DNA of 62,252 nucleotides from a virus. Of this stretch, positions 32,406 to 59,561 are shown one piece after another; within the stretch, counting starts at the first letter, position 1, and each line of letters opens with the position of its first letter. Under the pieces are notes generated by a model, which had not been told where the DNA came from, searched no databases, and saw only the letters and a list, made by a program, of their open reading frames with translations. The position numbers and the translations under genes are program-made. The DNA lies in the IMG/VR virus record IMGVR_UViG_3300036790_000814, positions 1-62,252 of that record. One strand, given 5' to 3'.

Positions 32406-32414
32406 GGAGCGAGC

Positions 32415-34792: not shown

Positions 34793-34793
34793 G

Positions 34794-34979
34794 ATGCGCA
34801 CCGTCACAGTCGCCGGCGGCGATCTCTACCATGTGGCCCTGCAATATCTGGGGGATGCAACTCAATGGTCGCGGATCGCTCAGGCGAATAACCTGCTTGA
34901 TCCGGTGATTACCGGTATCGTCACCCTGCAAATACCTTCGGTGAATCCGACCCTTACCGGGGGCGTGCTTGCTCTTTAG
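34794..34979 (+). CDS. LysM-like tail protein X (61 aa)
   Basis: GDLYHVALQYLGDATQWSRIAQ then NNLLDP...LQIP is the single LysM/gpX motif. Such small proteins stack with the hub. Confidence 0.75.
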   Translation: MRTVTVAGGDLYHVALQYLGDATQWSRIAQANNLLDPVITGIVTLQIPSVNPTLTGGVLAL

Positions 34980-36677: not shown

Positions 36678-37043
36678 TTGAGTGACGTATCCCAGACCTG
36701 GGGCGATGATATCGATGTAAGCGCCAATGGGGATTTGCTCGTTGTCGATAGCCTTCTCCTGAGCGAACAGCGCGTTTTGCGTCGGCTTCTCACGAATCCG
36801 GGCGATTATATCTGGCATCCCGACTATGGGGCCGGGCTGCCCGCCATGATCGGCGAGCCGATCAACGTGGATACGGTCAAAGCCATCATCACGGCGCAGA
36901 TTTTCCTTGAGGATTCGGTCGTACGCGATCCGCCGCCGGTGGTCGATGTTTCGTCCATTCCGAACGGGATGTTTGTCAATATTCAGTACACCGAAGCGGA
37001 TTCGGGGCAACCCGTCACTTTGAGTTTCAGCGTCAACGCCTAG
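36678..37043 (+). CDS. Baseplate wedge protein W / gp25-like (121 aa)
   Basis: A TTG start directly after the spike stop. SEQRVLRRLLTNPGDYIWHPDYGAG is the gp25-like signature. Part of the baseplate inner ring. Confidence 0.8.
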   Translation: MSDVSQTWGDDIDVSANGDLLVVDSLLLSEQRVLRRLLTNPGDYIWHPDYGAGLPAMIGEPINVDTVKAIITAQIFLEDSVVRDPPPVVDVSSIPNGMFVNIQYTEADSGQPVTLSFSVNA

Positions 37044-37050
37044 GTTTTAG

Positions 37051-38175
37051 ATGGCTAGCCTTCAGACTTATGATTTCACGTCGCTGGTGCGGAACACCGT
37101 CGCGGCGATACAGGCCGGATCGAGCAAGCTTATCAATCTCTCGGTCGGCTCCGTACTGCGCGCGCTGGTCGAAGCCGTGTCCGGCGTCATTCTCTGGCTG
37201 CAGGGCCTCGTCACCTATGTTCTGACGCTCACGCGCTTCGCCACAAGCTCCGGCTCCGATGCGGATAGCTGGGGCGCTGATTTCGGCTATGTTCGCCTGC
37301 TTTCGGCATTCGCTTCCGGCCAGGTCACCTTCTATCGCTTCACCGCAACTGCTCAAGCCGTCGTTCCCTTCGGCTCGGTCGTCCAGACCGCGGACGGAAC
37401 CCAAAGCTTCACGGTCGAGACGGACCCGACGAACCCGGCCTATAGCGAATCGCTGGGCGGCTATGTGCTGCCTATCAACACGTCAAGCGTCACCGTCACC
37501 GTGGTAGCGGTGAACGCCGGAACGCAGGGCAATGTAGCCGGCGGAACCATCACCTCGATGGGGCAGGGGATTCCGGGCATTGATACGGTGACGAACGCCA
37601 GCGCGTTCATCAACGGTATCGATGTCGAGGCCGATCCTTCTTACAAAACACGGTTTCCGCTCTGGCTTCAGGCGCTGTCAAAAGCGACGAAACTGGCGAT
37701 AGCTTCCGCCATCCTGAGCGTCGAAGCGAATCTCCGCTACACGATCACGGAAAACTACGACTACAACAATACATACGATCCAGGATTTTTCTACCTGGTC
37801 ATAGACGATGGAAGTGGCGATCCATCATCCGATCTGCTGAACAGCGTAGGGTCTGCCGTCGAAGCCGTGCGCGGTCTTGGCATACGTTATGCCGTGTTTG
37901 GTCCAAACGTCGTCACCGCGAACGTCAACATGACGCTCACAACGGCGAGCGGGTACGATCACCCCACGGTTGTCGGCCAGGTTGGAACGGCACTACAGAA
38001 TTTCATCAATGGCCTCACGATAGGCACCACACTGCCCTATTCGCAGCTTGCTGCGGTCGCCTACAGCATTCCCGGAGTGACAAACGCTACATCGATCACG
38101 CTCAACAGCGGAACCTCGGATCTTACCGCCACGAATCAGCAAACGATTCGCGCGGGCACAATTACCGTCGCGTGA
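37051..38175 (+). CDS. Baseplate wedge protein J (374 aa)
   Basis: Matches gpJ: SSKLINLSVGSVLRALVEA near the N-terminus, TTSVNAGTQGNVAGGTI-type strand, then SVTVVAVNAGTQ and an IPGVTNAT segment. It forms the wedge dimer with the following protein. Confidence 0.85.
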   Translation: MASLQTYDFTSLVRNTVAAIQAGSSKLINLSVGSVLRALVEAVSGVILWLQGLVTYVLTLTRFATSSGSDADSWGADFGYVRLLSAFASGQVTFYRFTATAQAVVPFGSVVQTADGTQSFTVETDPTNPAYSESLGGYVLPINTSSVTVTVVAVNAGTQGNVAGGTITSMGQGIPGIDTVTNASAFINGIDVEADPSYKTRFPLWLQALSKATKLAIASAILSVEANLRYTITENYDYNNTYDPGFFYLVIDDGSGDPSSDLLNSVGSAVEAVRGLGIRYAVFGPNVVTANVNMTLTTASGYDHPTVVGQVGTALQNFINGLTIGTTLPYSQLAAVAYSIPGVTNATSITLNSGTSDLTATNQQTIRAGTITVA

Positions 38176-38181
38176 TCTGAC

Positions 38182-38847
38182 ATGGCCATCGGGGATCAAG
38201 CCGACTGCGAAAGCCGGATCAAGGCGCTCCTGCCGCAAAAGTGGTTTAACGATAGCTCGCCGGTCAAGGATGCGCTGGTTTCAGGCTGCGCATGGGCGCT
38301 GTCTCTGGTCTATTCGCTGATCCAGTACGCGCAGAACCAGACTCGCATAGCGACAGCGACGGATGGTTTCCTCGACCTCATCGGGTGGGACTATTTTGGC
38401 GGGAGGCTGCCGCGCCGCCAGCAAGAAACCGACGCGGCCTATCGCGCGCGCATTCAGGCGAACCTGCTTCTGACCCGCACGACGCGGCAGGGGATGGTCA
38501 ATTGCCTTGTGGCGCTTACCGGGCGCGCGCCGATCATCTTTGAACCTGCGCGGCCTCTGGATACTGGAGCCTACGGCGCCTCGATCTGCGGCTATGGTTC
38601 GGCCGGCGGTTACGGGTCGCAGAAGCTCCCGGCTCAGGCGTTCATTATTGCCTATCGGCCTTCAGGTTCCGGCATTCCGAACATCGGGGGCTATGGCTCA
38701 ACGCCATGGGGTTACTCGACGGCAAGCCAGGGCGAATACGCCAGCCTGAGCATGATTCAAGGCTACGTCACAGACGCGGACATTTTCGCCTGCGTCGATG
38801 CAGCGAAACCGGCAGGCACAACCGCCTGGACACGTTTATCGAACTAG
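38182..38847 (+). CDS. Tail protein I-like (221 aa)
   Basis: Position after gpJ and N-terminal helices ending RIATATDGFLDLIGWDYFG; the C-terminal half is Gly/Tyr-rich (CGYGSAGGYGS and GGYGSTPWGYS), an aromatic-glycine stretch likely to bind the fiber. Confidence 0.75.
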   Translation: MAIGDQADCESRIKALLPQKWFNDSSPVKDALVSGCAWALSLVYSLIQYAQNQTRIATATDGFLDLIGWDYFGGRLPRRQQETDAAYRARIQANLLLTRTTRQGMVNCLVALTGRAPIIFEPARPLDTGAYGASICGYGSAGGYGSQKLPAQAFIIAYRPSGSGIPNIGGYGSTPWGYSTASQGEYASLSMIQGYVTDADIFACVDAAKPAGTTAWTRLSN

Positions 38848-38855
38848 GAGCATTC

Positions 38856-40367
38856 ATGGACAGACAGATCGTTTACGTTGGACAGGTGCCGCAGGACACT
38901 GACCTGCTTCTGACCAACAAAAATACGATGATCGCCTTGGGGATGCTTGCGCAGGCCGTCCTCGGCACGTCCACGCTCGTTGACGGGCTTGCTTGCACCG
39001 CGACGAGCCCCGCGTCCCTCCAGGTCGATATAGGGCCCGGTTCGATCTATTCCTACCAGAATGTCGATGGCACAGCTTACGGCTCGATCAACGCCGATAC
39101 CTCCGACCAGATCGTCAAGCAGGGCATAAATCTCTCGCCCGTCGCTCTTTCCTGCCCCGCGCCTGCCACATCCGGCTATTCGGTCAACTATCTCATTCAG
39201 GCCGAGTTCGAGTCGGTCGATGGCGGATCAACCGTCCTTCCCTATTACAATTCGAGCAACCCGTCCGTCGCCTACAACGGCCCGAACAACACCGGCGTAT
39301 CGCAGAATACCATCCGTCAGGGCCAGTGCGTGCTGAATGTGAAGGCCGGTACGGCGGCCACAACCGGAACACAGGTCACGCCGACGCCCGACGCGGGCTA
39401 CACCGGCCTCTGGGTCGTCACCGTCGCCAATGGGCAGACCACGATCACGTCTGGCAACATCGCGGCCTCCGCAGGCGCTCCGTTCATCTCGAACAAATTG
39501 GCGTCGCTTGCGCCTCTGGCAAGCCCTGCCATGACCGGCGTCCCAACTGCGCCAACGGCCTCGCCGGGAACGAATACGACGCAACTTGCCACGATGGCCG
39601 CGCTCCAAGCAGCCATAAGCGGAACCGCGCAACCTACGACCGGCTCTGCCTCCGGCCTGGCGGCGGCATGGGCCTCCAACACCACACTGACTCTCTTGGC
39701 GAACGAAATCACGCTGGAAAATGGCTCTGGCGGCACATACAAGGCTGTTAGCCCCTCGCGCACGATCAACACGGGCACGACGGGAGCCGATGGCTGTGAT
39801 GTGGCATTGTCCGGCTTCTCCGCCAGTTCGTGGGCCTACTACTACCTGATTTCGGATGGCACAAACGTACGCGGCCTCCTCTCCGCTTCCGCTACGTCGC
39901 CGACGATGCCCGGAAGCTATACCTACAAAGCGCTGTGCGGTGCGTGTCGTCTCGACGGAAGCAAGAATATCGTCGGGTTCAAGCAAATCGGCCGCAAATG
40001 GCAATACCAGGTGGGGTCGAACCTGAGCGCCTTGCCGCAGATGTTCGCCGGTAATTCAGGAAGCGTTTCAACGCCGACTTATACCTCTCTTGCCATTAGC
40101 AGCTATGTGCCGACAGCCATCGCCAGCACGATCAAGTTCTGCTTTGTCAGCGCCAGCAATAACGGTCAGACAATCATCGCGCCCAACAGCAATTACGGCG
40201 CAGCAAATACGGCGACGAATCCCCCACCTTTCGATGTCGGGCCGGGATCAGGCACGAACATCACCATGATGGGCGAGCTTCTGCTCGAAAGCTCGAACAT
40301 CTACTACGCCAATAGCAACGGGTCAGGGAGCGCCACCTATGCTCTCGGCTTTGAACTGAATCTGTAG
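38856..40367 (+). CDS. Tail fiber protein (503 aa)
   Basis: The ATG at 38856 is chosen behind AGGAGCATTC; longer frames run into the previous gene. Ser/Thr/Ala/Gly-rich beta-fiber with a repetitive centre ([23 protein letters not shown], the collagen-like phage-fiber repeat). It would carry host-surface recognition. Confidence 0.8.
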
Positions 40368-42225: not shown

Positions 42226-42485
42226 ATGGTCGCTCCCTCCTCCTCCTCCTCCTGTTGGGCGCATGCGCCTCGCCAGTGACGGTGTACAAGCCGGTCACCG
42301 TCGAAGTGCCGGTGCCATGCGATATGCCGAAGGTCGATCATCCGGCATGGGCAACGTCGCTCGTTCCTCTAAACTCCCGCCTATTCGATAAGGTGAAGGC
42401 CAGTCTGGTCGAACTGCAACAACGCGCGGCCTATGAGGCGCGGCTGCAAGCTGCGGCAGCCTCGTGCGCGAAAGCCTCAACCTAG
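42222..42485 (+). CDS. o-spanin lipoprotein, Rz1-like (87 aa)
   Basis: Signal peptide MNGRSLLLLLLLGACAS with lipobox LLGAC (lipidated Cys about residue 15), then a Pro/Val-rich part and a coiled C-terminus. An outer-membrane lipoprotein partner of the preceding i-spanin. Confidence 0.75.
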   Translation: MNGRSLLLLLLLGACASPVTVYKPVTVEVPVPCDMPKVDHPAWATSLVPLNSRLFDKVKASLVELQQRAAYEARLQAAAASCAKAST

Positions 42486-42492
42486 AGGGCGC

Positions 42493-42690
42493 GTGAGCAA
42501 CCACGACCTCTACAACAAGGTCGCAGACGCTCTCAAGAAGAACGGTTTCGAGCTGGTTCGCCCCAAGGGCGGTCACATGATATTCGGCCGCGAAGAACCG
42601 CGCCTCCGCGTTCCTGTTCCCGTGCAACTCCACGACAAAGCGTTGGCAAACAGAATCTTCAAGCAAGCCAGGATCGAGGCCCACCTATGA
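42493..42690 (+). CDS. Second HicA-like protein (65 aa)
   Basis: GTG start at 42493. It has a helix (KVADALKKNGFEL), RPKGGHMIFGRE with the His in the HicA place, strands, and a helix ending FKQARIEAHL. No HicB gene adjoins. It overlaps the endolysin gene by ATGA. Confidence 0.65.
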   Translation: MSNHDLYNKVADALKKNGFELVRPKGGHMIFGREEPRLRVPVPVQLHDKALANRIFKQARIEAHL

Positions 42691-43109
42691 CGCGCGGCAT
42701 GACGTTGAACAATCCATGCAATGTCATGGAAACGCGGACAGTTTGGCAGGGACAGATAAAGCCAACTTCCGATACTGAAAGGCGCCTCGCGCAGTTCGTG
42801 GATATCCCACATGGCATCCGCGCCGCCGCGAGAATATTCTACAACTACGCGCACCTGGAAAACCTTAAGACCGTCCGCCTGATGATAAGCCGGTGGGCGC
42901 CTGAAAACGAAAACCCGACAGGCGATTATATCAAATTCGTCGCGGATGGCCTCGGCGTGGGGCCGGACGATATCCTGAACGTCCACAACACCAACACGCT
43001 CTTTTCCCTCATCAAGCTGATTATCCGATTCGAGCAAGGCGGCAACGTCTGCGTCGATTCGGACATTGCTGCTGGCATTTCCATGGCTGTTGACGAACCC
43101 GTGGCGTGA
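42687..43109 (+). CDS. Putative endolysin/structural P5-type protein (140 aa)
   Basis: RGMTLNNPCNV at the start, then FVDIPHGIRAAARIFYNYAH and RWAPENENPTGDYIKFVADGLGV. This is the family of phage murein-degrading or virion proteins usually starting RGIRNNNPGN. In this place an endolysin is likely. The Cys in place of Gly in NNPxN is unusual. Confidence 0.6.
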   Translation: MTRGMTLNNPCNVMETRTVWQGQIKPTSDTERRLAQFVDIPHGIRAAARIFYNYAHLENLKTVRLMISRWAPENENPTGDYIKFVADGLGVGPDDILNVHNTNTLFSLIKLIIRFEQGGNVCVDSDIAAGISMAVDEPVA

Positions 43110-43123: not shown

Positions 43124-43152
43124 TTGTACGAGCTGCAAGTCCGCAGTACAAT
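43124..43152 (+). promoter_or_regulatory. Promoter with inverted repeat before the mobilization module
   Basis: TTGTAC (43124-43129), 17-bp spacer, TACAAT (43147-43152): a strong sigma-70-like promoter. TTGTAC and GTACAA (43146-43151) are also inverted arms, so a regulator could bind across it. It separates this unit from the lysis genes. Confidence 0.6.
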
Positions 43153-43196
43153 GGCCGCTCTTTCCCCGCTCGCTGTTTATCTAAGTTTTCTCGACT

Positions 43197-43571
43197 ATGT
43201 GCGTTGCCTCCATGAGTGCGAAAGTTGCCCAAAATCCCAGAAAGCGCGCTCCGATGAGTCAGGCGCAGCGCGATAAGCTCTCCGCCTCCCAAAGGGCTTA
43301 CGTTCAGAACGATCCACGCTGGGAAGAACATCGGCGCAAGCTGGCCGAAGCGCAGATTTGCCGCCGCATGACGCTTTTGCCCAATGAGGTCGAATTGATC
43401 CAGTCGCTGCGCCATAGGGGACGGACGTTCTCGTACATCGAGCAAGAGATCGGCGTTTGTGGCGAAGTGATCGGGCGCGAGCTGAAGGCAATGGGCATCC
43501 ATACCGGATGCGTGCGCCCTGGCCACAGGGCCAAGCGGGGGAAGGGGTTCTGGCGTTCGTTCGATGAATGA
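43197..43571 (+). CDS. Putative HTH protein leading the ArdC operon (124 aa)
   Basis: Basic N-terminus, then LLPNEVELIQSLRHRGRTFSYIEQEIGVCGEVIGRELKAMG (in pieces), which looks like a helix-turn-helix of the transposase/resolvase type. Start uncertain (43197, 43212 or 43254). It overlaps the next gene by 8 bp and lies just after a promoter with inverted arms it might bind. Confidence 0.55.
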   Translation: MCVASMSAKVAQNPRKRAPMSQAQRDKLSASQRAYVQNDPRWEEHRRKLAEAQICRRMTLLPNEVELIQSLRHRGRTFSYIEQEIGVCGEVIGRELKAMGIHTGCVRPGHRAKRGKGFWRSFDE

Positions 43572-44496
43572 GATCAAAACCCAAAGGGCCGACGTGTATG
43601 ACCGCGTGACGGCAAAAATCATCGAGTTTCTTGAAGCTGGCGCCCCGCTCTGTGAGCGATTGTGGATTGGCGGCCCTCCCTCCATTCCCCTCCGGGTCAA
43701 CAACAAGGCATATCGGGGCATAAACCAATTAGTGCTTTTCGTCGGCGCCATTGAGAACGGCTACGGCTTGGGCCACTGGCTTACCTACAAATCAGCCAAG
43801 GGCCTCGGCGGCCAGGTGCGCAAAGGCGAGAAGGGCGAACTGGTCGTCTATGCCGATTCGTTCATCAAGCCCGTCGAAAACAAGAATACCGGCGAGACGG
43901 AAGATCGGGAGCTGTGGTTCCTCAAGGGATACACGGTCTTCAACGCGCAGCAGATCGACGGCCTGCCCGCCGCATTCTATCAACGCCCAACCATCAAGCT
44001 GATGGAGAAGCCGGAAAAGCTGGAAGCCGTAAAGCGCTTCGTTGCCAACACGGGCGCGAAGATCATCGACGGTGGCACGCAGGCTTTCTACCGGCCATCA
44101 ACCGATGAGATCCACATGCCGGACTATGAGCGGTTTACGAGCCGCGAGGCATGGCATAGCGTGGAACTCCACGAACTCGGCCATTGGTGCGCCCATTCGA
44201 GCCGTCTCAACCAGCCTCTCGGCGGTGACAAGCGCAGCAAAGCTTATGGGATCGAGGAACTGAATGCTGAGATAACGAGTGCGTTCCTTTGTGCGTCATT
44301 GGAAATCACGCCGGAAGTCCGAACCGACCATTCAGCTTACTTGGCTGCTTGGTTGGGCATTCTCCGAGAGGATAATCGTGCAATCTTTGCTGCCGCTAGG
44401 GAGGCGCAACGGCGGACTGATTATCTGTTCGGTCTGCAACCTGGTCGCCCTCAGGAAGACGGCGGCGGTTCCGACGCGCCTGACGATCCGGCATGA
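43564..44496 (+). CDS. ardC: ArdC-like antirestriction/ssDNA-binding protein (310 aa)
   Basis: The N-terminal domain is the DUF1738-type ssDNA-binding part: NNKAYRGINQLVLF, SAKGLGGQVRKGEKG, FLKGYTVFNAQQIDGLP. The C-terminal part has the metallopeptidase motif HELGHW (H-E-x-x-H type; about residues 203-208). ArdC proteins of conjugative plasmids bind entering ssDNA and protect it from restriction. Its presence supports real conjugal entry of this element. Confidence 0.8.
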   Translation: MNEIKTQRADVYDRVTAKIIEFLEAGAPLCERLWIGGPPSIPLRVNNKAYRGINQLVLFVGAIENGYGLGHWLTYKSAKGLGGQVRKGEKGELVVYADSFIKPVENKNTGETEDRELWFLKGYTVFNAQQIDGLPAAFYQRPTIKLMEKPEKLEAVKRFVANTGAKIIDGGTQAFYRPSTDEIHMPDYERFTSREAWHSVELHELGHWCAHSSRLNQPLGGDKRSKAYGIEELNAEITSAFLCASLEITPEVRTDHSAYLAAWLGILREDNRAIFAAAREAQRRTDYLFGLQPGRPQEDGGGSDAPDDPA

Positions 44497-44807
44497 GCCA
44501 GGACGCCTTCGACCGGATGGTGGCCCGATTCCGTGCACGGATGGCGCACCTGCGCGAAACCCACGCCCGCCAAGGCTACCTCTATGCCGAGCACCAGAAG
44601 GATTCCGGCTATGCCATCCTGTTGACGCCGGAGCCGTCCGGCGACGCAACCTGGCGCGTAACCTCGTTCCAAGCCGGCCAGCCGATCGGGCACCGGCAGT
44701 ACGATGTCCTGGAAGGCCGCGGCCCGGCGTTCAACGCCTTGCAGGAGTTCGCTGGGACGAATTGGCGCCTGGTGCAGAGATACTGGCCGCCGACTGACCC
44801 GACTTAG
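44493..44807 (+). CDS. Hypothetical protein of the ArdC operon (104 aa)
   Basis: ATGA overlap with ardC. Mixed alpha/beta, ends in a Tyr/Trp-rich stretch (FAGTNWRLVQRYWPP). No family recognised; same module. Confidence 0.6.
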   Translation: MSQDAFDRMVARFRARMAHLRETHARQGYLYAEHQKDSGYAILLTPEPSGDATWRVTSFQAGQPIGHRQYDVLEGRGPAFNALQEFAGTNWRLVQRYWPPTDPT

Positions 44808-44810
44808 CGC

Positions 44811-45338
44811 TCAACCGGTCGAGTAGAAGAGGCGGATTGCACGAACCGCGATAGAAGGCACCATGCGGAACATGGTGGTGATGAGGCGATAGCGACATAT
44901 CCACACCCCCTTCGTGGCGCCGAATGTCTTTACCAGCGTCGCAAGCTCCTCATGGTGGTCGCCGAGATACTCGTCAATCCGGCCTTTCGGCGCGGTGAGG
45001 GCGATCAGCATTTCGCATCCGCCAAGTTGAGGAATCTGGACGAGCCGTGGTCTGAGGAAGTTGGGGTGAGCGAAACCGCTCCCAGGCGCCAACGATCTGC
45101 GGCCGTGATGCTTGACTTGGATAAACGTACCGGCGGCGACAGCATCCGGCTTTCCCTCGTTCTCCTCGAAGCTGTCCAGCAATATCAGGTTCCCAAGATC
45201 TGCAGACAGTGCTGTGTCGAAGGCTCTCAGATGGTCTGCATCGAGATGTGTCAGAAAGACACGGGTGATGGCATCGACGCTGACGGTGTTGTCCCGACCA
45301 CCATCCTTACCGTTCATCAGCCGCGAGAAGAGGCTCAC
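44811..45338 (-). CDS. Hypothetical protein paired with PadR (175 aa)
   Basis: Translationally coupled to the PadR gene (4-bp overlap, ATGA). It has long helices, a His/Lys/Arg-rich middle and a hydrophobic C-terminus. PadR-linked target genes often encode stress or membrane factors; I cannot name this one. Confidence 0.6.
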   Translation of the reverse strand: MSLFSRLMNGKDGGRDNTVSVDAITRVFLTHLDADHLRAFDTALSADLGNLILLDSFEENEGKPDAVAAGTFIQVKHHGRRSLAPGSGFAHPNFLRPRLVQIPQLGGCEMLIALTAPKGRIDEYLGDHHEELATLVKTFGATKGVWICRYRLITTMFRMVPSIAVRAIRLFYSTG

Positions 45339-45655
45339 GAAAGGCCTCCCGCGGCCACCAAGCCGCTCTGGAACCGGCTTGCGAACCTCTCGGCGGCCAA
45401 CTGACCAGGCGCTTCGATCCGGTACAGCCGCTTCCGCCTTCCGCCGCGCTCGGCCGTTCCCTCAGTCCACCAGGACGAAATCATCCCCTTGGCTTCCAGC
45501 CTCTCCAGCGCCGTGTAGACGGAACCCAGGCTTACCTTGCGTTCCAGCCGCGCCTCCAACCTATCCCTGAGCGACAGCCCATAGGCGTCCCGCGGCTGCT
45601 GGATTAGCGAAGCCAGAAGGTCGAACTCGAACGGGCCTATCGAATCACGCGCCAT
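45335..45655 (-). CDS. PadR-family transcriptional regulator (106 aa)
   Basis: Winged-helix DNA-binding domain: LASLIQQPRDAYGLSLRDRL, then VSLGSVYTALERLEAKGMI, the classical PadR pattern, plus a C-terminal dimer helix. Strong AGGAGCTTCC site at the chosen ATG. It would repress its own two-gene operon. Confidence 0.8.
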   Translation of the reverse strand: MARDSIGPFEFDLLASLIQQPRDAYGLSLRDRLEARLERKVSLGSVYTALERLEAKGMISSWWTEGTAERGGRRKRLYRIEAPGQLAAERFASRFQSGLVAAGGLS

Positions 45656-45668
45656 GGAAGCTCCTTTA

Positions 45669-45685
45669 GTCCTGCGATGTAGGAC
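45669..45685 (-). promoter_or_regulatory. Candidate PadR operator
   Basis: Inverted repeat GTCCT-7 bp-AGGAC just upstream of the padR ribosome site; position suited to autoregulation. Seen by eye. Confidence 0.4.
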
Positions 45686-45819
45686 AAATAGGATCGCAAC
45701 CGCCTCGGCGCAAGTGGGCCGGATGACATTTCTATCTTCCGCCGACACCAGATGAGATGGGAAACATCCCACGATTATCCTTGACGCCCTAGGCTCACCC
45801 CTCGCACGATAACCCCATC

Positions 45820-46203
45820 GTGAGCGACCATGAAGGGCTGGCTCTTGGCGTCGCACTGATCGCCGTCGGCATATGGCTTGCCGCACGCCGCCGTCCTGCG
45901 CGTCTGGTCGATCAGACCGTCTTCATCGTCCGCAACCTCAAGAACCTTCTGGCGATTGCGTTCGCGCTTTTTCTGCTGGCTTGGTGGGCCGGGGCCTTCA
46001 GTAATGACCAGGTTGAGCGTTGGTGGGAGCGCTTCTGGGATGAGGCCGCGCGTATCCCGTTCCTGGTCTTCCTTGCCTTCATCGTCGGCGCTCCGGCGGT
46101 CTGGCACTGGATCAACCGGGCGTACACCCTTCGGGGACCGCCGCAGATGCCGCCGCCACGTAGCAAACCCTACGGCTGGCGTAAGCCGGGCAACCGGGTT
46201 TGA
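45820..46203 (+). CDS. Membrane partner of the coupling protein (127 aa)
   Basis: GTG start at 45820. Three hydrophobic segments (about 7-22, 43-60, 80-98) and a proline-rich tail, overlapping the ATPase gene by TTGA. Full-length VirD4 proteins carry such N-terminal spans themselves, whereas the next gene has none. A separate anchor subunit is therefore plausible. Confidence 0.6.
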   Translation: MSDHEGLALGVALIAVGIWLAARRRPARLVDQTVFIVRNLKNLLAIAFALFLLAWWAGAFSNDQVERWWERFWDEAARIPFLVFLAFIVGAPAVWHWINRAYTLRGPPQMPPPRSKPYGWRKPGNRV

Positions 46204-47513
46204 ACGTCTGGGCGACCAACGGCGGAATCTATCTCGGCTGCCCGGCGGACAGCCCGCAGGGTGACTGGCGCGGCAACGCTGGCGTCGAGCATCGGTATGA
46301 TGGTGATCGGCACATCCTCCTGCTCGGCCCCAACGGTAGCGGTAAAACAAGGCGTCTGCTCTATCCGAACCTGCTTTCCCTCCAGCGCTGGTCGGTCCTC
46401 GTTGTCGATCCCAAGGGCCTGCTGGCAGGACTGACAATCAACCAGCGTATTGGGACCAAGATCGTCCTCGATCCGTTCAAGGTGACCTCCCTTCCCTCCG
46501 CCGGCTTCAATCCGCTATCGGCACTAAACTCTGCGGACGACACCTTTCCCGATGACTGCCTCGGTATCGCCCGGTCGCTGATTCAGATTGAGGGCTCCGA
46601 ACCGCACTGGTCGGCCTCGGCGCAAGATTGGGTGTGCGCTCTCATCATGTATGAGAAGCTCAAGCATGGTGACGCGGCAACGCTGGTCGGCGTGCGCAAG
46701 AATCTCGGCGGCAGCCAGGCGGATACCCGACAACTCGCGGCAGATATGTGCGTCCTTGGCGACGAGGAAGACTGTGGCGAGCTCGTCATCAAGGCCTCGC
46801 GATTCCTCGATATCAACGAGGAGTCGAAGGAACTGAACAGCATCCTCTCCACCGCTCTAACGCAGACGCGATGGCTGGACAGCCGCCCGATCAAGGCCGA
46901 TTTGAGCGGCGGTACGTTCGATTTCGCGACGATGAAAGACCGTCCGGTCACGGTCTACCTGGTGCTTCCCCCGAACCGCTTGGTCACGCACGGGCCGTGG
47001 CTCCGGCTGATGATTACCGCCGTGCTCCAGCCGCTTTTGCGGGAGGTGAAACCTTCAGCGACGCCCGTCCTGTTCATGCTGGACGAATTTGCCCAGCTCG
47101 GCCATCTGCCGGTGATCGAGGAGAATCTGGCGGTGATGCGCGAGTACGGCGTCAAGCTCTGGCCCGTGTTTCAAGACGTGGCGCAGGGACAGGCGATCTA
47201 CGGCAAGCGCTGGCCATCGTTCCTGAGCAACAGCGGCATTGTCCAAAGTTTCTCGGCCATGGATGTCGATACCGCCGAACTGCTCTCCAAACGCTCGGGG
47301 CAGACATCCGAATGGATCGAGGTGCCTTCCGAAAGCCGAAATCTCGGCCGCGAGTTGAGCCGGTCGGTCAGCGCCGCCGCACAAGTGATCCAACGCCCTG
47401 TCCTCTGGCCGCACGACCTGATGGATATGGATGACGGCTATACCGTCATCTATTCACACCGGGCCAAAGGGCCGGTTTTTGCGTTTGCGCCGTGGCCGTC
47501 CGCCCTTGGCTGA
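46200..47513 (+). CDS. VirD4/TraG-type coupling ATPase without membrane domain (437 aa)
   Basis: TTG start. Walker A GPNGSGKT at 43-50 and Walker B LFMLDEFAQLG at 291-301. SNSGIVQSF and the DPFKVTSLPSAGFNPL region are typical of T4CP. It would bring the relaxase-DNA complex to a type IV channel. At 437 aa it is shorter than the usual 550-700 aa, and the N-terminal membrane part is missing. No mating-pair genes are in the window, so it would use a foreign channel. Confidence 0.85.
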   Translation: MNVWATNGGIYLGCPADSPQGDWRGNAGVEHRYDGDRHILLLGPNGSGKTRRLLYPNLLSLQRWSVLVVDPKGLLAGLTINQRIGTKIVLDPFKVTSLPSAGFNPLSALNSADDTFPDDCLGIARSLIQIEGSEPHWSASAQDWVCALIMYEKLKHGDAATLVGVRKNLGGSQADTRQLAADMCVLGDEEDCGELVIKASRFLDINEESKELNSILSTALTQTRWLDSRPIKADLSGGTFDFATMKDRPVTVYLVLPPNRLVTHGPWLRLMITAVLQPLLREVKPSATPVLFMLDEFAQLGHLPVIEENLAVMREYGVKLWPVFQDVAQGQAIYGKRWPSFLSNSGIVQSFSAMDVDTAELLSKRSGQTSEWIEVPSESRNLGRELSRSVSAAAQVIQRPVLWPHDLMDMDDGYTVIYSHRAKGPVFAFAPWPSALG

Positions 47514-47751
47514 CCCTCCCAGCATTTCGGCGCTGCGGCAGGCTTCGTGGTCATTCTCTTGTGTGATTTTCTGATAGCAGAATGAGCATATCGTCTTGTC
47601 AGAATGGGAATCCGCCCAGGATCGGCTGTGCCGGAGCGGGCGCGGCTTTGGCGTCCACTGCGTCAGTGCGCGCGCACCGCGGCGGAACGTCGGGCTGCGG
47701 GTTTCGCGTTCGCCTGTCCCGCCCCTGCGCCGCCGCGCGACAGGCGGGGGA

Positions 47752-49650
47752 TTATCTCCCCCTTCCCCCCCTGTTCTGGCCGCGCTGCGCCTGTTTGGAT
47801 TGGGTCGGGCCGTCCGTAGTCTTCCCTTCGGCCCTGATCTTGTCGATCTTCTCGCGCATCGCGGGCGTGATGTGCCCGCGCTGTTCGTCCTTGCGCTCGT
47901 CGGCCTCAGCCGCCTTCGCCAACGTCTCGCGCGCGGCCGCCAGGTCGGCGCGGGTATGCTGCCCCTGCCCTCCCCGGTTGACCGCGCGCTCGGTCGCCAC
48001 ACCCTCATCGGCCGGTATCGTTCCTTGAGAGAGTTCCTCACGTGGCGCCTTCCGGGCCTCGTGGCCTTCCTGAAGCTTTTGGACCAATTGGGTAGGCAGG
48101 CCGGTGTTGGCCAAATCCTCGCGGAATTTTTCGACAACCCCCTCACGAACCTGTCTGGAAAGCTGCGTTCGGTATTCTCGCAGTTCCTCCGCGTAGCCCT
48201 CGCAGGCGTCGGCTTCCTGCACGGTGGCGATGGCGGACGGGTGATCCATGTTCCGCGTCGCGACCTGAGTGTAAGAGGCAATGCGCCGATCCGTTAGCGC
48301 CCGATATTCGTACCACTCGATATGCCGGTTGGTGCGCAGCAGTTCACGTTGAACGGGATCGGCTTCCTGTGCCTCCTGCCCCCGATACCAGTCTTGCTTT
48401 TCGGCGAAGGCCGCGTACTCGGCGCGCGCGGCGCTCGACAGTACAGTGTAGACATCGGCGGATGTGGTGGAAGCCGACAGCGCGGATGCGTAGCGCGAAT
48501 GCGCGTCGGCCGGTTCCCCGTTTCGCTCCAGCTCGGCGGTATGGCCGTCCCGCGTCCTCTTCCATCGTTCGGCCTCGCGGATCTCCGCCTCGCGCCTGGT
48601 CTCAAACGTCCTGAGTTCTTCGCCGCGCGTCAGTTGGTCCTGAATGAGCGCGGTGCGCTCCGCCCGCAGGTGATCGAGGCGTTCCTGCTGAAGCCGTACC
48701 TGCTTATCGTTGTCGTCGCCGGCCGGAATGTCGGGCCGCCCCGCGAGCCTCGGATCCGCTTCGCGCTTACGCTCGTCCTGGTCGTGTCCGGAGTCATCGC
48801 TCATCCCGCTCCCCTTCCCAGCTCTCTTGCGGCGCTCGTCTTCGAGGATGATGATTTCGGCAGTGAGTTTCGCCTGCTCGGCCTTCAGTTCATTTAGTTC
48901 AGCGTGGTGCCGCCGGTTGCGCGCTTTGACGGCCCGATTGTGCTCGCCGGTCGCCGTCGGCGCCCCGTCGAGCTCGGCCTGGTTCTGTTTGTTCCCCAGA
49001 TGCTTGGTCGGCTCAAGATCGATGCCCTGCTTGTCGTAGGTCTCGTGGGAAACCCGTTCACCGGATCCGATCAGCTCAAGGCGCTCGTTCAACACCGAGG
49101 CGAACATCTTCCGCTGCCAGATGGTTTCCTCAACCCGGGTTTTCTTGTCGGTGATCTCGCGCGCTTTCGCGCCGAACCCCTCCGGCCCGACGCGCCGCAT
49201 GTTGTAGCCGAGATGGATGTGCCAGTTCCGGTCGTCGCCGTGGTCGGTCGGCTTGTGAACCGCCCAAGTGACCATGACGCCATAGCGCTGGCTGATCTCC
49301 CGCGCCATGCGCTGCGCTACGTCGATATGGTCGCTCTCCGCAAACTCCCGCGAACTGGCAAGATTCCAGTGGTTGGCGACGTGGCTATTGATGCGCTTTT
49401 CAGAAGCCTCGACCGCGTTCCAGGCTTTGCCAAGCTGGTCATCATCGGTCAGGTAGGCCTGAGCACCAGACGGTGCGACTGTCCCCCAACCCGACACCTC
49501 ACCCGGATGGTTCCTCTTGCACCAGGTGCCGGTGCGTTCGTCCTTCAGGGTCTCGCCGGTCATGTAGGCCGCAAGGCCAACCGCCGACTTGCCTTCGCTC
49601 CGGCTCACGGCATCGATGTGGGCATGGTACCATGTCACGGGGACGGACAT
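47752..49650 (-). CDS. MobA/MobL-family (MOBQ) relaxase (632 aa)
   Basis: The N-terminal relaxase has SAVGLAAYMTGE with a candidate catalytic Tyr29, and the metal triad as NWHIHLGYN (H144, H146, N150). The long C-terminus is coiled coil with charged heptads. MOBQ enzymes nick oriT and stay bound to the 5' end. Divergent from the accessory gene 49818-50144, with oriT-like DNA between them. Confidence 0.88.
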   Translation of the reverse strand: MSVPVTWYHAHIDAVSRSEGKSAVGLAAYMTGETLKDERTGTWCKRNHPGEVSGWGTVAPSGAQAYLTDDDQLGKAWNAVEASEKRINSHVANHWNLASSREFAESDHIDVAQRMAREISQRYGVMVTWAVHKPTDHGDDRNWHIHLGYNMRRVGPEGFGAKAREITDKKTRVEETIWQRKMFASVLNERLELIGSGERVSHETYDKQGIDLEPTKHLGNKQNQAELDGAPTATGEHNRAVKARNRRHHAELNELKAEQAKLTAEIIILEDERRKRAGKGSGMSDDSGHDQDERKREADPRLAGRPDIPAGDDNDKQVRLQQERLDHLRAERTALIQDQLTRGEELRTFETRREAEIREAERWKRTRDGHTAELERNGEPADAHSRYASALSASTTSADVYTVLSSAARAEYAAFAEKQDWYRGQEAQEADPVQRELLRTNRHIEWYEYRALTDRRIASYTQVATRNMDHPSAIATVQEADACEGYAEELREYRTQLSRQVREGVVEKFREDLANTGLPTQLVQKLQEGHEARKAPREELSQGTIPADEGVATERAVNRGGQGQHTRADLAAARETLAKAAEADERKDEQRGHITPAMREKIDKIRAEGKTTDGPTQSKQAQRGQNRGGRGR

Positions 49651-49667
49651 TATTTGCTTCCTGCCTC

Positions 49668-49700
49668 TGCAAACGCGTGCGTTTGCAAAAGTGCGCTAAC
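49668..49700 (+). other. oriT: Candidate origin of transfer (oriT), RSF1010-like
   Basis: Perfect inverted repeat TGCAAACGC-GT-GCGTTTGCA (49668-49687) followed by AAAGTGCGC (49688-49696). The MOBQ nic region of RSF1010 reads TAAGTGCG then CCCT after an inverted repeat. Here AAGTGCG ends 8 bp after the repeat, the same spacing; the nick would fall about 49695/49696 on this strand. It lies between the relaxase and its probable accessory gene. Confidence 0.7.
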
Positions 49701-49817
49701 CCTTCTACCGCCGCCTGCTTGCCTCTGCTCCATCGGCGGGCCTTTCCCCCGAACCATGGTTGCGCCATGATAACAGCGGCATCGCGGGAATGCACGACCA
49801 GAAAAGGGGGTGAGGAC

Positions 49818-50144
49818 GTGGGCGACACACTCGACCGGCTGACGAAGCTGAAGCAGAGGCAGGCGAAGCAGCTAGAAAAAGAGATTCAGGAAGCCACCAA
49901 GCGCAAGCAGTTGGAGAGCCGTATCCGCAGGGAAGAAGCGGCGCTGGCTTTGCGCCTCGCGGGTCTGCTGGGCGAGACGATACGGGACGCAACCCTGACA
50001 CCGGCGGAGCACGAAACCATTGCCGCGATTATCCGCCGCCGTGAGGGGCAGCCGCGGGATTGGGCGAAGGTGCTTGAGTGGTTGGAGGCTTCGGCTCCGA
50101 AGCCATTGCCGCAGGTGGTTACCGAAGCTATCCGGGCGGCCTGA
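49818..50144 (+). CDS. Relaxosome accessory-like protein (108 aa)
   Basis: The GTG start at 49818 follows GGGGGTGAGGAC. Two long charged helices (LKQRQAKQLEKEIQEATKRKQ) make a coiled coil, followed by a short domain with PAEHETIAAIIRRREG. Comparable in place and style to MobC/TraD-type accessory proteins next to MOBQ relaxases. Its end overlaps the convergent gene 50128-50349. Confidence 0.6.
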   Translation: MGDTLDRLTKLKQRQAKQLEKEIQEATKRKQLESRIRREEAALALRLAGLLGETIRDATLTPAEHETIAAIIRRREGQPRDWAKVLEWLEASAPKPLPQVVTEAIRAA

Positions 50145-52444: not shown

Positions 52445-53371
52445 TCAGTATTCCAGATTTCCGGCGGCAAACTGCTTGGCCCAAAATACGGCGGCGTTCG
52501 TGGCCTTCCGCTGCCATGCGCCAAAGCGGGGACTCCAATGCCAGCCCGCGCCTTTCAGAGTGACTCTGGTCTGCTCGTCCGGCTTGCCGTCAAAGAAAAT
52601 CTGAATCCGGTCTGCGTCGTGGTTGGCGACGACGCGAAGCCCTTCCTTGGCAACAATCTCAACCTCACCGGTCGGCTTGTTCGCGACGGCTTCGGCGGCG
52701 GTCTGCTCAAGGCTCCATGCCGAATGTGAAGGCATGAATATCGGCTTTGCCATGCTGGTTTGCTGCTCGCGGATGAAAGACAGCCCGCGCCGGACAAGTT
52801 CCCGCTCCCCGTTCGCGGCCAGCCGTTTCAGCTTTCCGGCCAAGCTGTTGACAAAGGCCGAACGGGTATAGGGCTTGGTTCCGTCGTCGATGGCCTTGAT
52901 AACGCCGATATCGCGGGCAAAATCGTGCTGTAGCTTGCGCCAGTCGTCTGTTGTCATCTGTTCCGGTGTGCGGGCGTCGAGGATGGCTTTTGCGGCGACG
53001 TCCTGCGCCCGCGCGTTCCACGCCTGAAACTCGGCGCGGCGGCGGTCAACTGTCTCGCCGCGCTTTCGATTGCTCTCGGTCGGGAATCTGGCGGGGCCGA
53101 CGATGAAAGCCGAAGCCGTCCGCGTCATGGCGTGCCAGATCGCGGTTTGATGCTCAGCATAGTTTCGCTGATAGCGTTCGACGTGTTCGGGGATAAGCGC
53201 CCGCTGCGCGTCCGTTTTTGCCAGTGTCTCCATTTTCTGCCGCAACCCTTCCACGGCTTCGTGGAAAAATCCAATGTCCCCATCGGCTCTGCGTTCGGGG
53301 AAATGGCTGAGATTAGCATAGGCCCGAATGGCAAGATCGCGGTCGAGGTGGGCAGGCAAAGCAGTCGTCAT
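52445..53371 (-). CDS. Conserved plasmid/phage protein (308 aa)
   Basis: Helical first 200 residues, then a compact C-terminal module: RIQIFFDGKPDE then LKGAGWHWSPRFGAWQRK. This recurs in plasmid and phage accessory proteins, from memory. Second gene of the operon led by the excisionase-like HTH gene. Function not known. Confidence 0.65.
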   Translation of the reverse strand: MTTALPAHLDRDLAIRAYANLSHFPERRADGDIGFFHEAVEGLRQKMETLAKTDAQRALIPEHVERYQRNYAEHQTAIWHAMTRTASAFIVGPARFPTESNRKRGETVDRRRAEFQAWNARAQDVAAKAILDARTPEQMTTDDWRKLQHDFARDIGVIKAIDDGTKPYTRSAFVNSLAGKLKRLAANGERELVRRGLSFIREQQTSMAKPIFMPSHSAWSLEQTAAEAVANKPTGEVEIVAKEGLRVVANHDADRIQIFFDGKPDEQTRVTLKGAGWHWSPRFGAWQRKATNAAVFWAKQFAAGNLEY

Positions 53372-53388
53372 AGTCTAGCTTTCCCCGG

Positions 53389-53712
53389 TCAAGCCGGTGC
53401 AAAGGTGTGCTTTCTAGCTTTCTGCTGTTTCCCTCGAATCAGCCGTTCATAAGCGGCATCAATGCTCACGTCCGGCGCGATGGATACACCGCTGGTAGAA
53501 ATGCCGCCGCGTGCGGAGGGGAGGGCGGGGATTCTGGATGTCGCCCGCTCTGCGGCCCCAATCCATGCGTCAATCTTGTTGGGATCGAACGTCCAGACAC
53601 CTCCGAGCTTGGCGGCTCCGGGTATCTTGCCTAATGCGGCGAGAGATTGAACCTGTCGAAGCGATAGGCTTGTCCGATTTACAACATCTGTGGGGCGGAT
53701 GCGGTCACTCAC
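53389..53712 (-). CDS. Excisionase/MerR-like HTH protein (107 aa)
   Basis: RPTDVVNRTSLSLRQVQSLA then KIPGAAKLGGVWTFDPNKI is the HTH-17/AlpA-Xis fold; the C-terminus is disordered. First gene after palindrome C, so it could be an autoregulator of the five-palindrome regulon or the partner of the integrase at 61191. Confidence 0.65.
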   Translation of the reverse strand: MSDRIRPTDVVNRTSLSLRQVQSLAALGKIPGAAKLGGVWTFDPNKIDAWIGAAERATSRIPALPSARGGISTSGVSIAPDVSIDAAYERLIRGKQQKARKHTFAPA

Positions 53713-53759
53713 GAAATCCTTTGCTTTCTCCCCATAATGGGGGCCGGTTTAATAATCAG

Positions 53760-53811
53760 ATTCTAGTTATCCCACGCCATGAAACAAGCAAAATCATGGC
53801 AACATTGTTGC
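53760..53811 (-). promoter_or_regulatory. Palindrome C plus promoter of operon 53712-50128
   Basis: GCAACATTGTTGC at 53799-53811; 11 bp on, TTGTTT (53787-53782), a 16-bp spacer and TAGAAT (53765-53760) on the minus strand. It begins only 3 bp after the stop of the gene upstream. Confidence 0.78.
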
Positions 53812-53814
53812 TAT

Positions 53815-53973
53815 TTATTGCGGGGCTGGCGGCTTCCATTCCCTCGGCGTTGGATTCCTGTTCCATGACCATCTGGCAATATCGGAAAGCTGATTCCATG
53901 AGGGCCGGACTGCGCCATCCTGATACGTCGGCTTTCGGCGGCAATCTTCCTCGTAGGCGTCCCGTCCGGTCAG
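53815..53973 (-). CDS. Small phage protein with possible CTG start (52 aa)
   Basis: The clean frame GRDAYEEDCRRKPTYQDG and on to WSWNRNPTPREW has the look of real phage proteins. No ATG, GTG or TTG lies close; a CTG overlaps the previous stop (CTGA, 53970-53973) exactly as ATGA does elsewhere. Non-canonical initiation is therefore likely. Confidence 0.5.
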   Translation of the reverse strand: MTGRDAYEEDCRRKPTYQDGAVRPSWNQLSDIARWSWNRNPTPREWKPPAPQ

Positions 53974-54197
53974 AGCTCGATTCCCCGAAGCCGATACGGA
54001 ACACCCTGATTGATTCGATCGACCATGCCACGGCGGAACTGTTCCATGACTTCCCTGCCGGAGCATGACCACCAGCATGTCAAGCCATGCTTGAACACCA
54101 TATCGGGATTCGCCTTCGCCAGCTTGATCGCTTGAACGTAGGCTGCGAGGGTGACGGTGCGGTTGATGGCGGGAAGGGTGATGGTGCGGGTAGGCAT
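53970..54197 (-). CDS. Conserved small protein (75 aa)
   Basis: MPTRTITLPAINRTVTLAAY then KANPDMVFKHGLTCWWSCSG; a family I know only as an uncharacterised plasmid/phage protein. The longer open frame upstream belongs to the neighbouring gene. Confidence 0.65.
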   Translation of the reverse strand: MPTRTITLPAINRTVTLAAYVQAIKLAKANPDMVFKHGLTCWWSCSGREVMEQFRRGMVDRINQGVPYRLRGIEL

Positions 54198-54234
54198 GGA
54201 TGGTTGATTTCTCCCGCTGGTGCGGGGTTTGGGG

Positions 54235-54753
54235 TTAGCAAATCTCGAATCCACCGCAGTCCTCAAGGAAGACGGCAAATCCTTCGATATTCTCAATGTT
54301 GATGTGGTATCCCGCCGCCCATGGCTCTTTGTCACCGCGTCCATCACAGCCATTGCACCAACCAACTTGCCCGTTGCGCGGGTGACCGTCCTCCTCAATT
54401 TTTCTGGTGTCCTGTCCGGCTTTCTTGCCTATCGCATCAGACCTTACGCCTGAACCGTTGCACAGTGGGCAGGTTTCGCGCGGGAGACCGGCGAGGGCGC
54501 TTGCTCTTTTGTCGATGTAGGCTTCCGCCGCGCCGCTTGCGATGCTCTGCCGCAGATGCGCCGCCAAATTCTTGGATGTCGCGGCGTCCAGCCCATCACC
54601 ATCATTCAAATGCCAGTGCTCGCAACGCGATGTAAGGTCATCGGGTGCGGTATCGAGGATGAAATCGGCAAGCGGACGCCACCACCATACATTGTTCCGA
54701 AAATACTTGCCCTTCTCCGATGTCGGAGCTTTCCCGTAAACGTCCATCCCCAT
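54235..54753 (-). CDS. Conserved accessory protein with Cys knuckle (172 aa)
   Basis: MGMDVYGKAPTSEKGKYF then NNVWWWRPLAD, later CPLCNGSG and WCNGCDGRG (a zinc ribbon of the DnaJ kind). Known in plasmid and phage accessory regions without function. The ATG at 54753 is used; 54747 is equally possible. Confidence 0.65.
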   Translation of the reverse strand: MGMDVYGKAPTSEKGKYFRNNVWWWRPLADFILDTAPDDLTSRCEHWHLNDGDGLDAATSKNLAAHLRQSIASGAAEAYIDKRASALAGLPRETCPLCNGSGVRSDAIGKKAGQDTRKIEEDGHPRNGQVGWCNGCDGRGDKEPWAAGYHINIENIEGFAVFLEDCGGFEIC

Positions 54754-55134
54754 GATACGCACTTTCTCCGGCTTGCCGCCGGTCTTGGTTGTCGGCCCTG
54801 TCGGGCGGGTGACGGTTGCTCTCCACCGACAAGTCACACACCATAGGGAACATCGGAAGGACGATCCCCCGCGCATGTGTCGCGCTGCGTTTAGATGGGC
54901 GGTGGCTCCTTCATCCATTCCGTCGATCTTGAATGACCGCTACCTTGACGCCGTGAGGCCCAAGGGCCGCATCACCCCGCTGTTGTTCGGGTTTTATGGG
55001 TTTCCCTTGCAATCCCACCCCTTGCGGGGACGGTGGGTTACCACCATCGGCCACAGTTTCCCGTGAACCTCTCCATCTTGGTTTAACGAGCCGGAAGGAT
55101 ACGCTGCTCGACTCCCTCGCGGGAATTTCTTGGC
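54754..55134. other. 381-bp gap without a clear gene
   Basis: No convincing frame in either direction. A possible hairpin, CCCACC...GGTGGG, lies around 55015-55040. It may hold a small RNA or leader. Confidence 0.35.
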
Positions 55135-56483: not shown

Positions 56484-58343
56484 CTACCCAGCTTGCATGA
56501 TCGGCGGTAACCAGCCCCGCCCTTTCAGCTCGGCAGAAATTGCCTTCGCCATCGGCTCCCGCTTCATAGCTTCGATGCCCTTGCGCTTTGCTGGCGGGAT
56601 TGCTCCATCAAGCTCGGCCAGCAACGCGGCTTTCGGCACTCGGCTGAAGTAGCTCTCTGCGTTCGCCGTCCAGTGCTTCCCCATGTCGAGCTTCAACGCC
56701 TTGGTGAGTTCGGCGGATGAGTCCTTCGCCTCGGCTCCGTTCGACTGCACCACGTCGATGGTGAGCGCGGCACACACGGCCAGAAGCCCCTGCACGGTGG
56801 CCGCGTTCTGCTCCGCCATCCAGCCCCACAAGTCCTCCGGCTTCTTCGGCAGTTTTTTCTGCCAAGCCTTCACGATACCGGCCAGCTTCTTCCCCGCCGC
56901 CGATTTCTCCACCTGCTCGTTGATCGCCAAGGGATAGTTCGTTTCGTGCGGGTTGATGCCCAAGCTGCTATGCTCTCCGCCGAGCTGGTAAAGCAGTTTC
57001 AGCGCGAGGACGTGGGTCACGGCCAGCAATCCCACCTTGGGGTTACCCGCCATCTCCACCTGAGCCGCCACATTCTTCTGGCTGGTCAGTTCCGCGACCA
57101 GCGCCGCCGACAGGCCGCCCTTGGCCTTCTCCGGCTTCGCTGCGCCATTACCGCTCTGCTCGGCCCCGTTCGCGCCGTGCGCCAGCTTACGGGCTGCTCC
57201 CTTGTCCTCAGGCTTCACCAGACCCTGCAAGACAGAAGCCTCGCCATTATGCCCGATGGTGACCAGAACGCCGCCGACGGCCATCTGCGCCAGCGTATAG
57301 ACGGGTTCGCCATCGGATAGCTCGTCGATCTGCTGGTACAGGTCACCAAGGCGCTCGGCGGCAGCTTCGTCGTCCGGCTCCTCCCCATGCTTCTTCATGA
57401 TCTTGTCGGCCTCGGCCTGTAGCGCGGCTATCTTCGCGCTCGTTTCCTCGTCCGGCTCCGCCCGGCCTGGTTGCAGGTGTCCGAAGGCGTTCTTCTGCTC
57501 ATAGGGCAGGTTGGGGATAACCTCGACCCATTTCCAGCCTATGCTTCTGAAAGCTATGGCGGCGGCGGTAAGCTTCTCCTCGGCCAGCCGGTTCACCAGC
57601 GCGGAGTCGGTCAACCATCCTTCCCCTTTGTCGGCAAACAGATCTCGCGTGATGCCGCCACCGGCCTTCTCATAGGCTTCGAGCGTCACGAACTTTGCGA
57701 TGGCACTATCAGCTTCCACCTGCTCGTTGGTCAGCGCGGCGCGTATCTGGTCGGCCCTGCCGTTGCCCTTCGCCCAATCCGGGAGGTCGCGCCAGACTTT
57801 CTCCTGCTTTTTCCTGTCCGACTCGATGGTGAAAGCCGTCACTTGGTCAAACGACATCTCGCCCTTCTCGAAAATGGTGATGAGCTTGGGGCTGACCGTC
57901 GTGGCGATTTTCAAGAACTGGTTCACATGGCGAAGCGGGGCAACAAGCTTTGCGGCTATCGTCTCAGGGCCATCGCCTTGATCGTTCAGTTTTTTGATGG
58001 CGTTCCATTGGTCTATTGGATGCATTTCGACGCGAGTTATGTTTTCAACCAAGCTGGTCTCAACCAATGTGGGATCGTTCGCATCCCGCACCTCGCACGG
58101 AACCAGATAGTCACCAGTTATTTTTTTCTGCTTAAGCAGCAGCTGCATGGCGGCAAGGCGAGTCCCCCCGATGACCACGCCAAATTTTTCACCTTCAACG
58201 GGATGGACACGCAGATTTTGGATCACACCGTGCTGTTCGATGCTGCGAGCAAACTCCTCGATGGTTTCCTTGGGGCGGATTTTTCTGACATTCAGGTCGG
58301 ACAGAACGAGGCTGCTCAGAGGGATGTTTTGTATCTCAGACAT
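56484..58343 (-). CDS. Large ParB-like protein (619 aa)
   Basis: Residues 5-115 are a ParB/Srx nucleotide-binding domain: IPLSSLVLSDLNVRK, FARSIEQHGVIQNLRVHP, then FGVVIGGTRLAAM in place of the usual GERRxxA box. A helical part (about 115-260) could hold an HTH, followed by a long variable helical C-terminus. Such proteins occur in plasmids and phages and may be DNA-binding regulators or nucleases. No ParA is present, so classical partition is doubtful. It is a candidate binder of the five palindromes. Confidence 0.75.
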   Translation of the reverse strand: MSEIQNIPLSSLVLSDLNVRKIRPKETIEEFARSIEQHGVIQNLRVHPVEGEKFGVVIGGTRLAAMQLLLKQKKITGDYLVPCEVRDANDPTLVETSLVENITRVEMHPIDQWNAIKKLNDQGDGPETIAAKLVAPLRHVNQFLKIATTVSPKLITIFEKGEMSFDQVTAFTIESDRKKQEKVWRDLPDWAKGNGRADQIRAALTNEQVEADSAIAKFVTLEAYEKAGGGITRDLFADKGEGWLTDSALVNRLAEEKLTAAAIAFRSIGWKWVEVIPNLPYEQKNAFGHLQPGRAEPDEETSAKIAALQAEADKIMKKHGEEPDDEAAAERLGDLYQQIDELSDGEPVYTLAQMAVGGVLVTIGHNGEASVLQGLVKPEDKGAARKLAHGANGAEQSGNGAAKPEKAKGGLSAALVAELTSQKNVAAQVEMAGNPKVGLLAVTHVLALKLLYQLGGEHSSLGINPHETNYPLAINEQVEKSAAGKKLAGIVKAWQKKLPKKPEDLWGWMAEQNAATVQGLLAVCAALTIDVVQSNGAEAKDSSAELTKALKLDMGKHWTANAESYFSRVPKAALLAELDGAIPPAKRKGIEAMKREPMAKAISAELKGRGWLPPIMQAG

Positions 58344-59404: not shown

Positions 59405-59456
59405 ACCCTAGCAATACATCACGGTAATGCAACAGGAAATAGAGCAACAATGTTGC
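59405..59456 (-). promoter_or_regulatory. Palindrome E plus promoter
   Basis: GCAACAATGTTGC at 59444-59456 (central base inverted relative to the others); 11 bp on, TTGCAT (59432-59427), a 16-bp spacer and TAGGGT (59410-59405) on the minus strand. Confidence 0.78.
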
Positions 59457-59561
59457 CATTTCCGGCCTATGCGCCCGTTACCCTCTTGACTGGAATCGTC
59501 TTCTCCTGCTCAGGCACATTCTTGGTCGGATCGCTCAGACGGCATTTTGGGCTAACACACA

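Follow-up and report, generated by a model that had tools for sequence, protein, structure and literature searches.

Can a temperate phage that encodes its own particle also be mobilized through the conjugation channel of another element? The question is raised by a block of mobilization genes that separates the lysis genes from the right early arm in the window analysed here, which is the whole 62,252 bases of the IMG/VR record IMGVR_UViG_3300036790_000814. A preliminary description, made from the sequence alone, had proposed that the element may spread both as a virus and as a mobilizable element using the channel of a helper. The virion and lysis genes and the integrase which it had placed elsewhere in the window were all found, from terminase and capsid through a contractile tail to the endolysin and the integrase. 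The large terminase (18751–20211, plus strand) showed 77–84% identity to phage relatives. Portal, scaffold and major capsid genes (20865–24409) and tail sheath, tube, tape measure, baseplate and tail fibre genes (29406–40367) followed on the same strand. An endolysin-like lysis gene (42687–43109, plus strand; phrog_873, 2e-40) formed the left boundary of the module, and a tyrosine integrase (61191–62252, plus strand; phrog_1, 7.5e-48) occupied the right end of the window. RecT/exonuclease functions were also encoded. This gene content is that of a temperate phage with a contractile tail; that infectious particles are made is inferred. The phage had been called complete, which was not shown: no end repeats were present in the 62,252-base window, and both ends of this IMG/VR contig coincided with gene ends, so that the record is probably a provirus trimmed out of a larger contig. 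Genes for tRNA-Met(CAT) and tRNA-Ser(CGA) were observed directly upstream of the terminase, at 17483–17653, and 28 bp direct repeats downstream of the capsid gene, at 24520–24547 and 24589–24616.

The module comprises ArdC, a coupling ATPase, a relaxase, an accessory gene and an oriT, and their presence is shown by profile searches and by the oriT pattern, in agreement with what had been claimed. It begins on the plus strand with an HTH-like protein (43197–43571, a weak HTH_38 match) and the ArdC anti-restriction protein (43564–44496; ArdcN 2e-28, MPTase-PolyVal 2.5e-45). ORFs of 104 aa (44493–44807, plus strand) and 175 aa (44811–45338, minus strand), both without known function, precede a PadR-family regulator (45335–45886, minus strand; PadR 5e-12), the true start of which is probably internal to the ORF. 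The module ends with a small coiled-coil accessory protein (49818–50144, plus strand), divergent from the relaxase gene, whose likely start is at 49818 and not at 49473, a revision of the earlier reading. It occupies the position of MobC/TraD, but comparison with plasmid MobC/TraD proteins was not significant and homology remains unsupported. Neither the relaxase nor the coupling ATPase had a PHROG match. No VirB4 channel gene was found in the window or in related phage records, and the claimed absence of a mating channel therefore held. An integrase, a relaxase and an oriT without a mating channel gene are the gene content of an integrative and mobilizable element. The block had also been called promoter-led; this found no support, as no sigma-70-like promoter was detected between 42.5 and 50.5 kb.

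Relatives of the phage were gathered by portal and terminase searches. Besides the window, two phages carry the complete module: G001 (IMGVR_UViG_3300047160_036126; terminase 78%, capsid 80% and sheath 71% identity) and G003 (IMGVR_UViG_3300047462_000775; terminase 81%, capsid 85%). In both, the module is located as in the window: it follows the genes for tail fibre and lysis and precedes a ParB-like gene (56484–58343 in the window, minus strand; phrog_7783), which accompanies it. A third carrier is likely: G038 (IMGVR_UViG_3300050821_024072) possesses the endolysin (40% identical, at the same place), the membrane-protein ORFs and the ATPase in the order of the window, and its contig ends inside the ATPase. 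The conservation of the module across related phages is thus shown, on four contigs only, metagenomic as far as known and one of them cut, and speaks against a chance insertion. ArdC has moved in the window, and G001 has its integrase at the other end of the phage. Further viral scans with the G003 relaxase, the G038 ATPase and the window ATPase as queries gave no new contigs. Direct repeats of 23 bp were also seen downstream of the capsid gene of G001 (42435–42457 and 42492–42514).

Module-free members exist. The module is missing from prophages of Limnoglobus roseus and Zavarzinella formosa (Gemmataceae; terminase 83%), and when 102 genomes of the order that includes Limnoglobus were searched for the terminase, matches came from these two genera only. 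No PF03135 VirB4 was found in the two hosts and the host of the window is unknown; a helper is therefore not demonstrated. The Zavarzinella genome contained seven coupling-ATPase matches and no PF03135 VirB4 match at E 0.001, and it is possible that its channels are divergent or that these ATPases serve another purpose; none was found in a phage-module context among those examined. The Limnoglobus prophage contained a 511-aa ORF (53351–54886 of G026) that matched coupling ATPases weakly, with a score under the curated cut-off. Another relative, RHOApg of Rhodovastum atsumiense (NZ_OW485608.1, 55 kb, essentially identical to IMG/VR 2887198475_000001), is listed as a plasmid and is a contractile-tailed phage-plasmid with RepA, ParA and virion genes. 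Its portal (71%), capsid (66%) and sheath (47%) place it in the same phage family, but it carries repA and parA after the lysis genes, and no relaxase or coupling ATPase was found in it. This family thus seems to use the slot behind its lysis genes for plasmid-type functions, which in this view would be replication and partition in one branch and mobilization with a ParB-like protein in the other. RepA and ParA of RHOApg had no match in the window, which does not meet the phage-plasmid criterion of a plasmid replication initiator plus ParA, with the reservation that unrelated initiators were not exhaustively searched.

The relaxase (47752–49650, minus strand, 632 aa) is of the MobA/MobL (MOBQ) type (MobA_MobL, 3e-33), with a profile score of 115.8 bits against a curated cut-off of 26.7. 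Its catalytic sites are conserved: Tyr29 of motif I and His132, His144 and His146 of motif III align with plasmid MOBQ enzymes and are kept in the G001 and G003 enzymes as well. Motif II deviates: its first Glu, an active-site position which we treated as usual rather than family-defining, is replaced by His94 in the window and by His in G001, whereas G003 and all compared plasmid relaxases have Glu. The window enzyme is therefore called a divergent MOBQ-type relaxase. In a structure model of pLDDT 71, the predicted fold of the relaxase domain gave as top PDB matches NES (4ht4, E 1.4e-10) and MobA of R1162 (2ns6, 1.2e-5). A tree of only ten sequences placed the window and G001 relaxases in a phage clade and the G003 relaxase among plasmid TraA-type enzymes. 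The relaxase is highly divergent (27–36%, against 50–85% for the virion genes). Direct scans of bacterial genomes for the relaxase gave nothing, and its matches among phage records came mainly from short fragments of faecal origin or from a mislabelled plasmid. Synechococcus phage Ssp-JY41 (PP438431.1), with RepA, ParA, a MobA-type relaxase, a VirD4-like match and no annotated virion gene, is likely a plasmid filed as a phage. Dolichospermum phage Dfl-JY45 (PP438435.1, 209 kb) has a MobA/MobL-like match at 205019–205645, and on this match only it is a possible second dual element.

The oriT-like DNA previously noted could be placed at 49668–49705 (plus strand), 18 nt upstream of the relaxase start, within the gap of 167 bp that separates the relaxase gene from the divergently oriented accessory ORF. 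It is made of a 9 bp inverted repeat, TGCAAACGC-GT-GCGTTTGCA, followed by AAAGTGCGC, with the nic-type core AAAGTGCGCTAACCC. The combination of an inverted repeat (7 bp or longer) with AAGTGCGC no more than 4 nt behind it was present once in the 62-kb window, once in G001, and in none of 60 first-order Markov randomised copies. The criterion for a cognate MOBQ oriT, a (T/A)AAGTGCGC core with an inverted repeat adjoining the relaxase gene, is met. Plasmid MOBQ relaxase genes fetched for comparison had an equivalent layout at the equivalent place, for example CGCAAACGCAAGTTTGCATAAGTGCGCCCTT in pYAN-1 and GAGTTACGCAGTAACTCGTAAGTGCGCCCTT in Rhizobium X9 p.4. Each of the two related phages has a diverged oriT-like sequence here, in the same gap and orientation, with GCGATTTC-GGA-GAAATCGC-GTTAAGTGCGCT in G001 and GTATTGG-CTAC-CCAATAC-TTAACCGCGCTC in G003. 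The latter was found only with the looser core AANNGCGC, which should turn up 0.18 times per 62 kb by chance, and is convincing because of its place. The oriT is shown as a sequence; nicking in the phage is inferred, without cleavage data.

The coupling ATPase (46200–47513, plus strand, 437 aa) is of the VirD4/TraG type (T4SS-DNA_transf, 5e-59), and its intact Walker A and B motifs meet the nucleotide-binding domain criterion for a VirD4-type coupling protein. The criterion of an N-terminal transmembrane (TM) segment in the same chain is not met: hydropathy revealed none in the three full-length phage ATPases (window, G001 and G003), against two TM helices in each of the plasmid ATPases tested. 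A class of T4CPs without a TM domain has been published (PMC7431656), to which the phage ATPases correspond. Just upstream, overlapping the ATPase start by 4 nt, a small membrane protein with three predicted TM helices is encoded (45820–46203, plus strand), and such an ORF holds this position in all four phages. It is likely a separate membrane anchor for the ATPase, a role which is inferred. The structure model of the ATPase was of too low confidence and was not used. In a tree with long branches and moderate sampling, the four phage ATPases, including the truncated one of G038, formed one clade with 100/100 support, apart from the sampled plasmid and chromosomal ATPases. In G003 the nic core has diverged along with the relaxase, while the ATPase remains in the phage clade. 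From the tree and the core it appears likely that G003 exchanged relaxase and oriT jointly and retained its ATPase, a pattern that may reflect selection for working mobilization.

Several observations bear on whether the window holds one element or two. The preliminary description would have been refuted by att repeats around 43.1 or 50.1 kb, or by related phages lacking the block with element remnants. Direct repeats between 43.1 kb and either 50.1 kb or the right end do not exceed 11 nt, and the second refuting result did not appear either. The clean insertion expected from comparison with module-free prophages could not be seen: no clean empty site was found, because the module-free relatives differ across the whole right arm. 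An operator-like palindrome, GCAACATTGTTGC, is located at 1135–1149 in the left arm, with a copy at 59443–59457 in the right arm. Its form GCAACA(A/T)TGTTGC occurs five times (1135, 6482, 53798, 56175 and 59443), in each arm upstream of early operons that run leftward, and with at most three mismatches there are 12 strand-matches where 1.4 are expected. These palindromes are likely the binding sites of one phage regulator. Virion genes and module therefore sit between arms apparently sharing one regulator. The shared operators, the conserved position of the module and the location of the G001 integrase at the other end thus argue against a separate adjacent element. Near matches to the palindrome were also seen at 43269 in G003 and 63078 in G001.

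The presence of the module inside the phage, and at the same place in related phages, leads to the suggestion that this virus may also spread through the conjugation channel of another element. We consider it likely (probability about 0.72) that the module is ancestral to a small family of phages, temperate and contractile-tailed, which are also mobilizable. The sequence supports the dual spread proposed earlier, and transfer through a helper is inferred. In the model we propose, the prophage would excise and the relaxase, with the accessory protein, would nick the oriT at 49.69 kb, the relaxase remaining bound to the 5' end of the nicked strand. With the membrane protein encoded upstream as its anchor, the coupling ATPase of the phage would pass this strand and its bound relaxase to a mating channel of the type IV secretion kind, provided by another element in the cell. 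ArdC would shield the incoming DNA from restriction, and the integrase would restore it as a prophage. Alternatively, the phage would be packaged and infect as a virus. Nicking, coupling, the use of a helper and the roles of ArdC and of the membrane protein are all inferred. Against this reading stand the absence of transfer data, the His in motif II, the undemonstrated helper, the small number of contigs and the unproven homology of the accessory protein. A bolder reading, toward which the balance tips only slightly, is that of a stably two-way family, at once a full virus and an integrative mobilizable element, with interchangeable relaxase-oriT cassettes adapting to different helpers and a phage-specific split coupling motor made of a soluble ATPase and a separate membrane anchor.

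Other explanations can be considered. The relaxase and oriT might serve phage replication of the rolling-circle type, or another internal DNA step in which the ATPase would be a DNA pump. Relaxases are able to start rolling-circle replication, motif II differs from that of the plasmid enzymes and no helper has been shown. This remains unlikely in view of the plasmid nic layout of the oriT, the full coupling-protein domain of the ATPase with its adjoining membrane protein, and the plasmid-type relaxase/oriT pair apparently taken up by G003; moreover, members without the module exist, and the module is therefore not essential for replication. It could also be argued that the phage once acquired the genes by recombination with a mobilizable plasmid and that they are now idle, decaying cargo. 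The divergence of the relaxase relative to the virion genes and the displacement of ArdC in the window are in favour of this view, which we also hold to be improbable: the reading frames and the oriT are intact in three phages, as are the Walker motifs and the catalytic Tyr and His residues, and a single ATPase clade was kept despite the divergence.

The least likely alternative is that of two adjacent elements, a prophage and an integrative mobilizable element, or of a chimeric assembly. The integrase lies beyond the module at the right end and the record ends are trimmed. In addition, ParB and ArdC are common on plasmids. This very unlikely explanation was rejected on the conserved position of the module, with the same gene order in independent contigs, the operator copies on either side, the lack of flanking repeats at 43.1 and 50.1 kb, and the integrase of G001 at the other phage end.

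The preferred reading, a phage that is also mobilizable, can be compared with known systems. Small MOBQ plasmids of Alphaproteobacteria (pYAN-1, Novacetimonas p2 and Rhizobium sp. X9 p.4) share the oriT layout, the nic core, the relaxase type and the divergent accessory gene, and X9 p.4 also has a TraG-type ATPase, like the phage module. They differ in lacking virion genes and in their coupling ATPases which, where present, have two TM helices in the same chain; their relaxases show about 33–39% identity to that of the window over less than half of the protein. CloDF13-type plasmids have their own coupling protein, MobB, and no channel (PMC7431656), but the TM domain of MobB is essential and in one chain, and they have no phage genes. 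By analogy, the phage is likely best compared to CloDF13, in that it would bring its own coupling motor, with the TM part on a separate chain. P1-like phage-plasmids also combine a phage backbone with a relaxase or an oriT. Most such mob/oriT carriers are plasmids that lost virion functions (PMC10879196), and two cases checked later have no virion genes (PMC12977533), whereas the family of the window holds virion genes, relaxase, ATPase and oriT together. Transfer of the streptococcal prophage Phi1207.3 was reported to fit the operational definition of conjugation (PMC4260502), but no relaxase was named and the mechanism was said to be unknown (PMC4260502). In the open literature searched, which excludes subscription papers and preprints, we found no description of a phage family keeping both virion and mobilization functions.

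Phages and mobilizable plasmids are usually viewed as separate routes of gene transfer. If the present reading is true, this lineage may use conjugation when its particles cannot infect, or reach cells that are closed to the virus. It would also offer a natural split coupling protein for study, and the question whether selection for helper-dependent conjugation can act on a virus becomes open to test.
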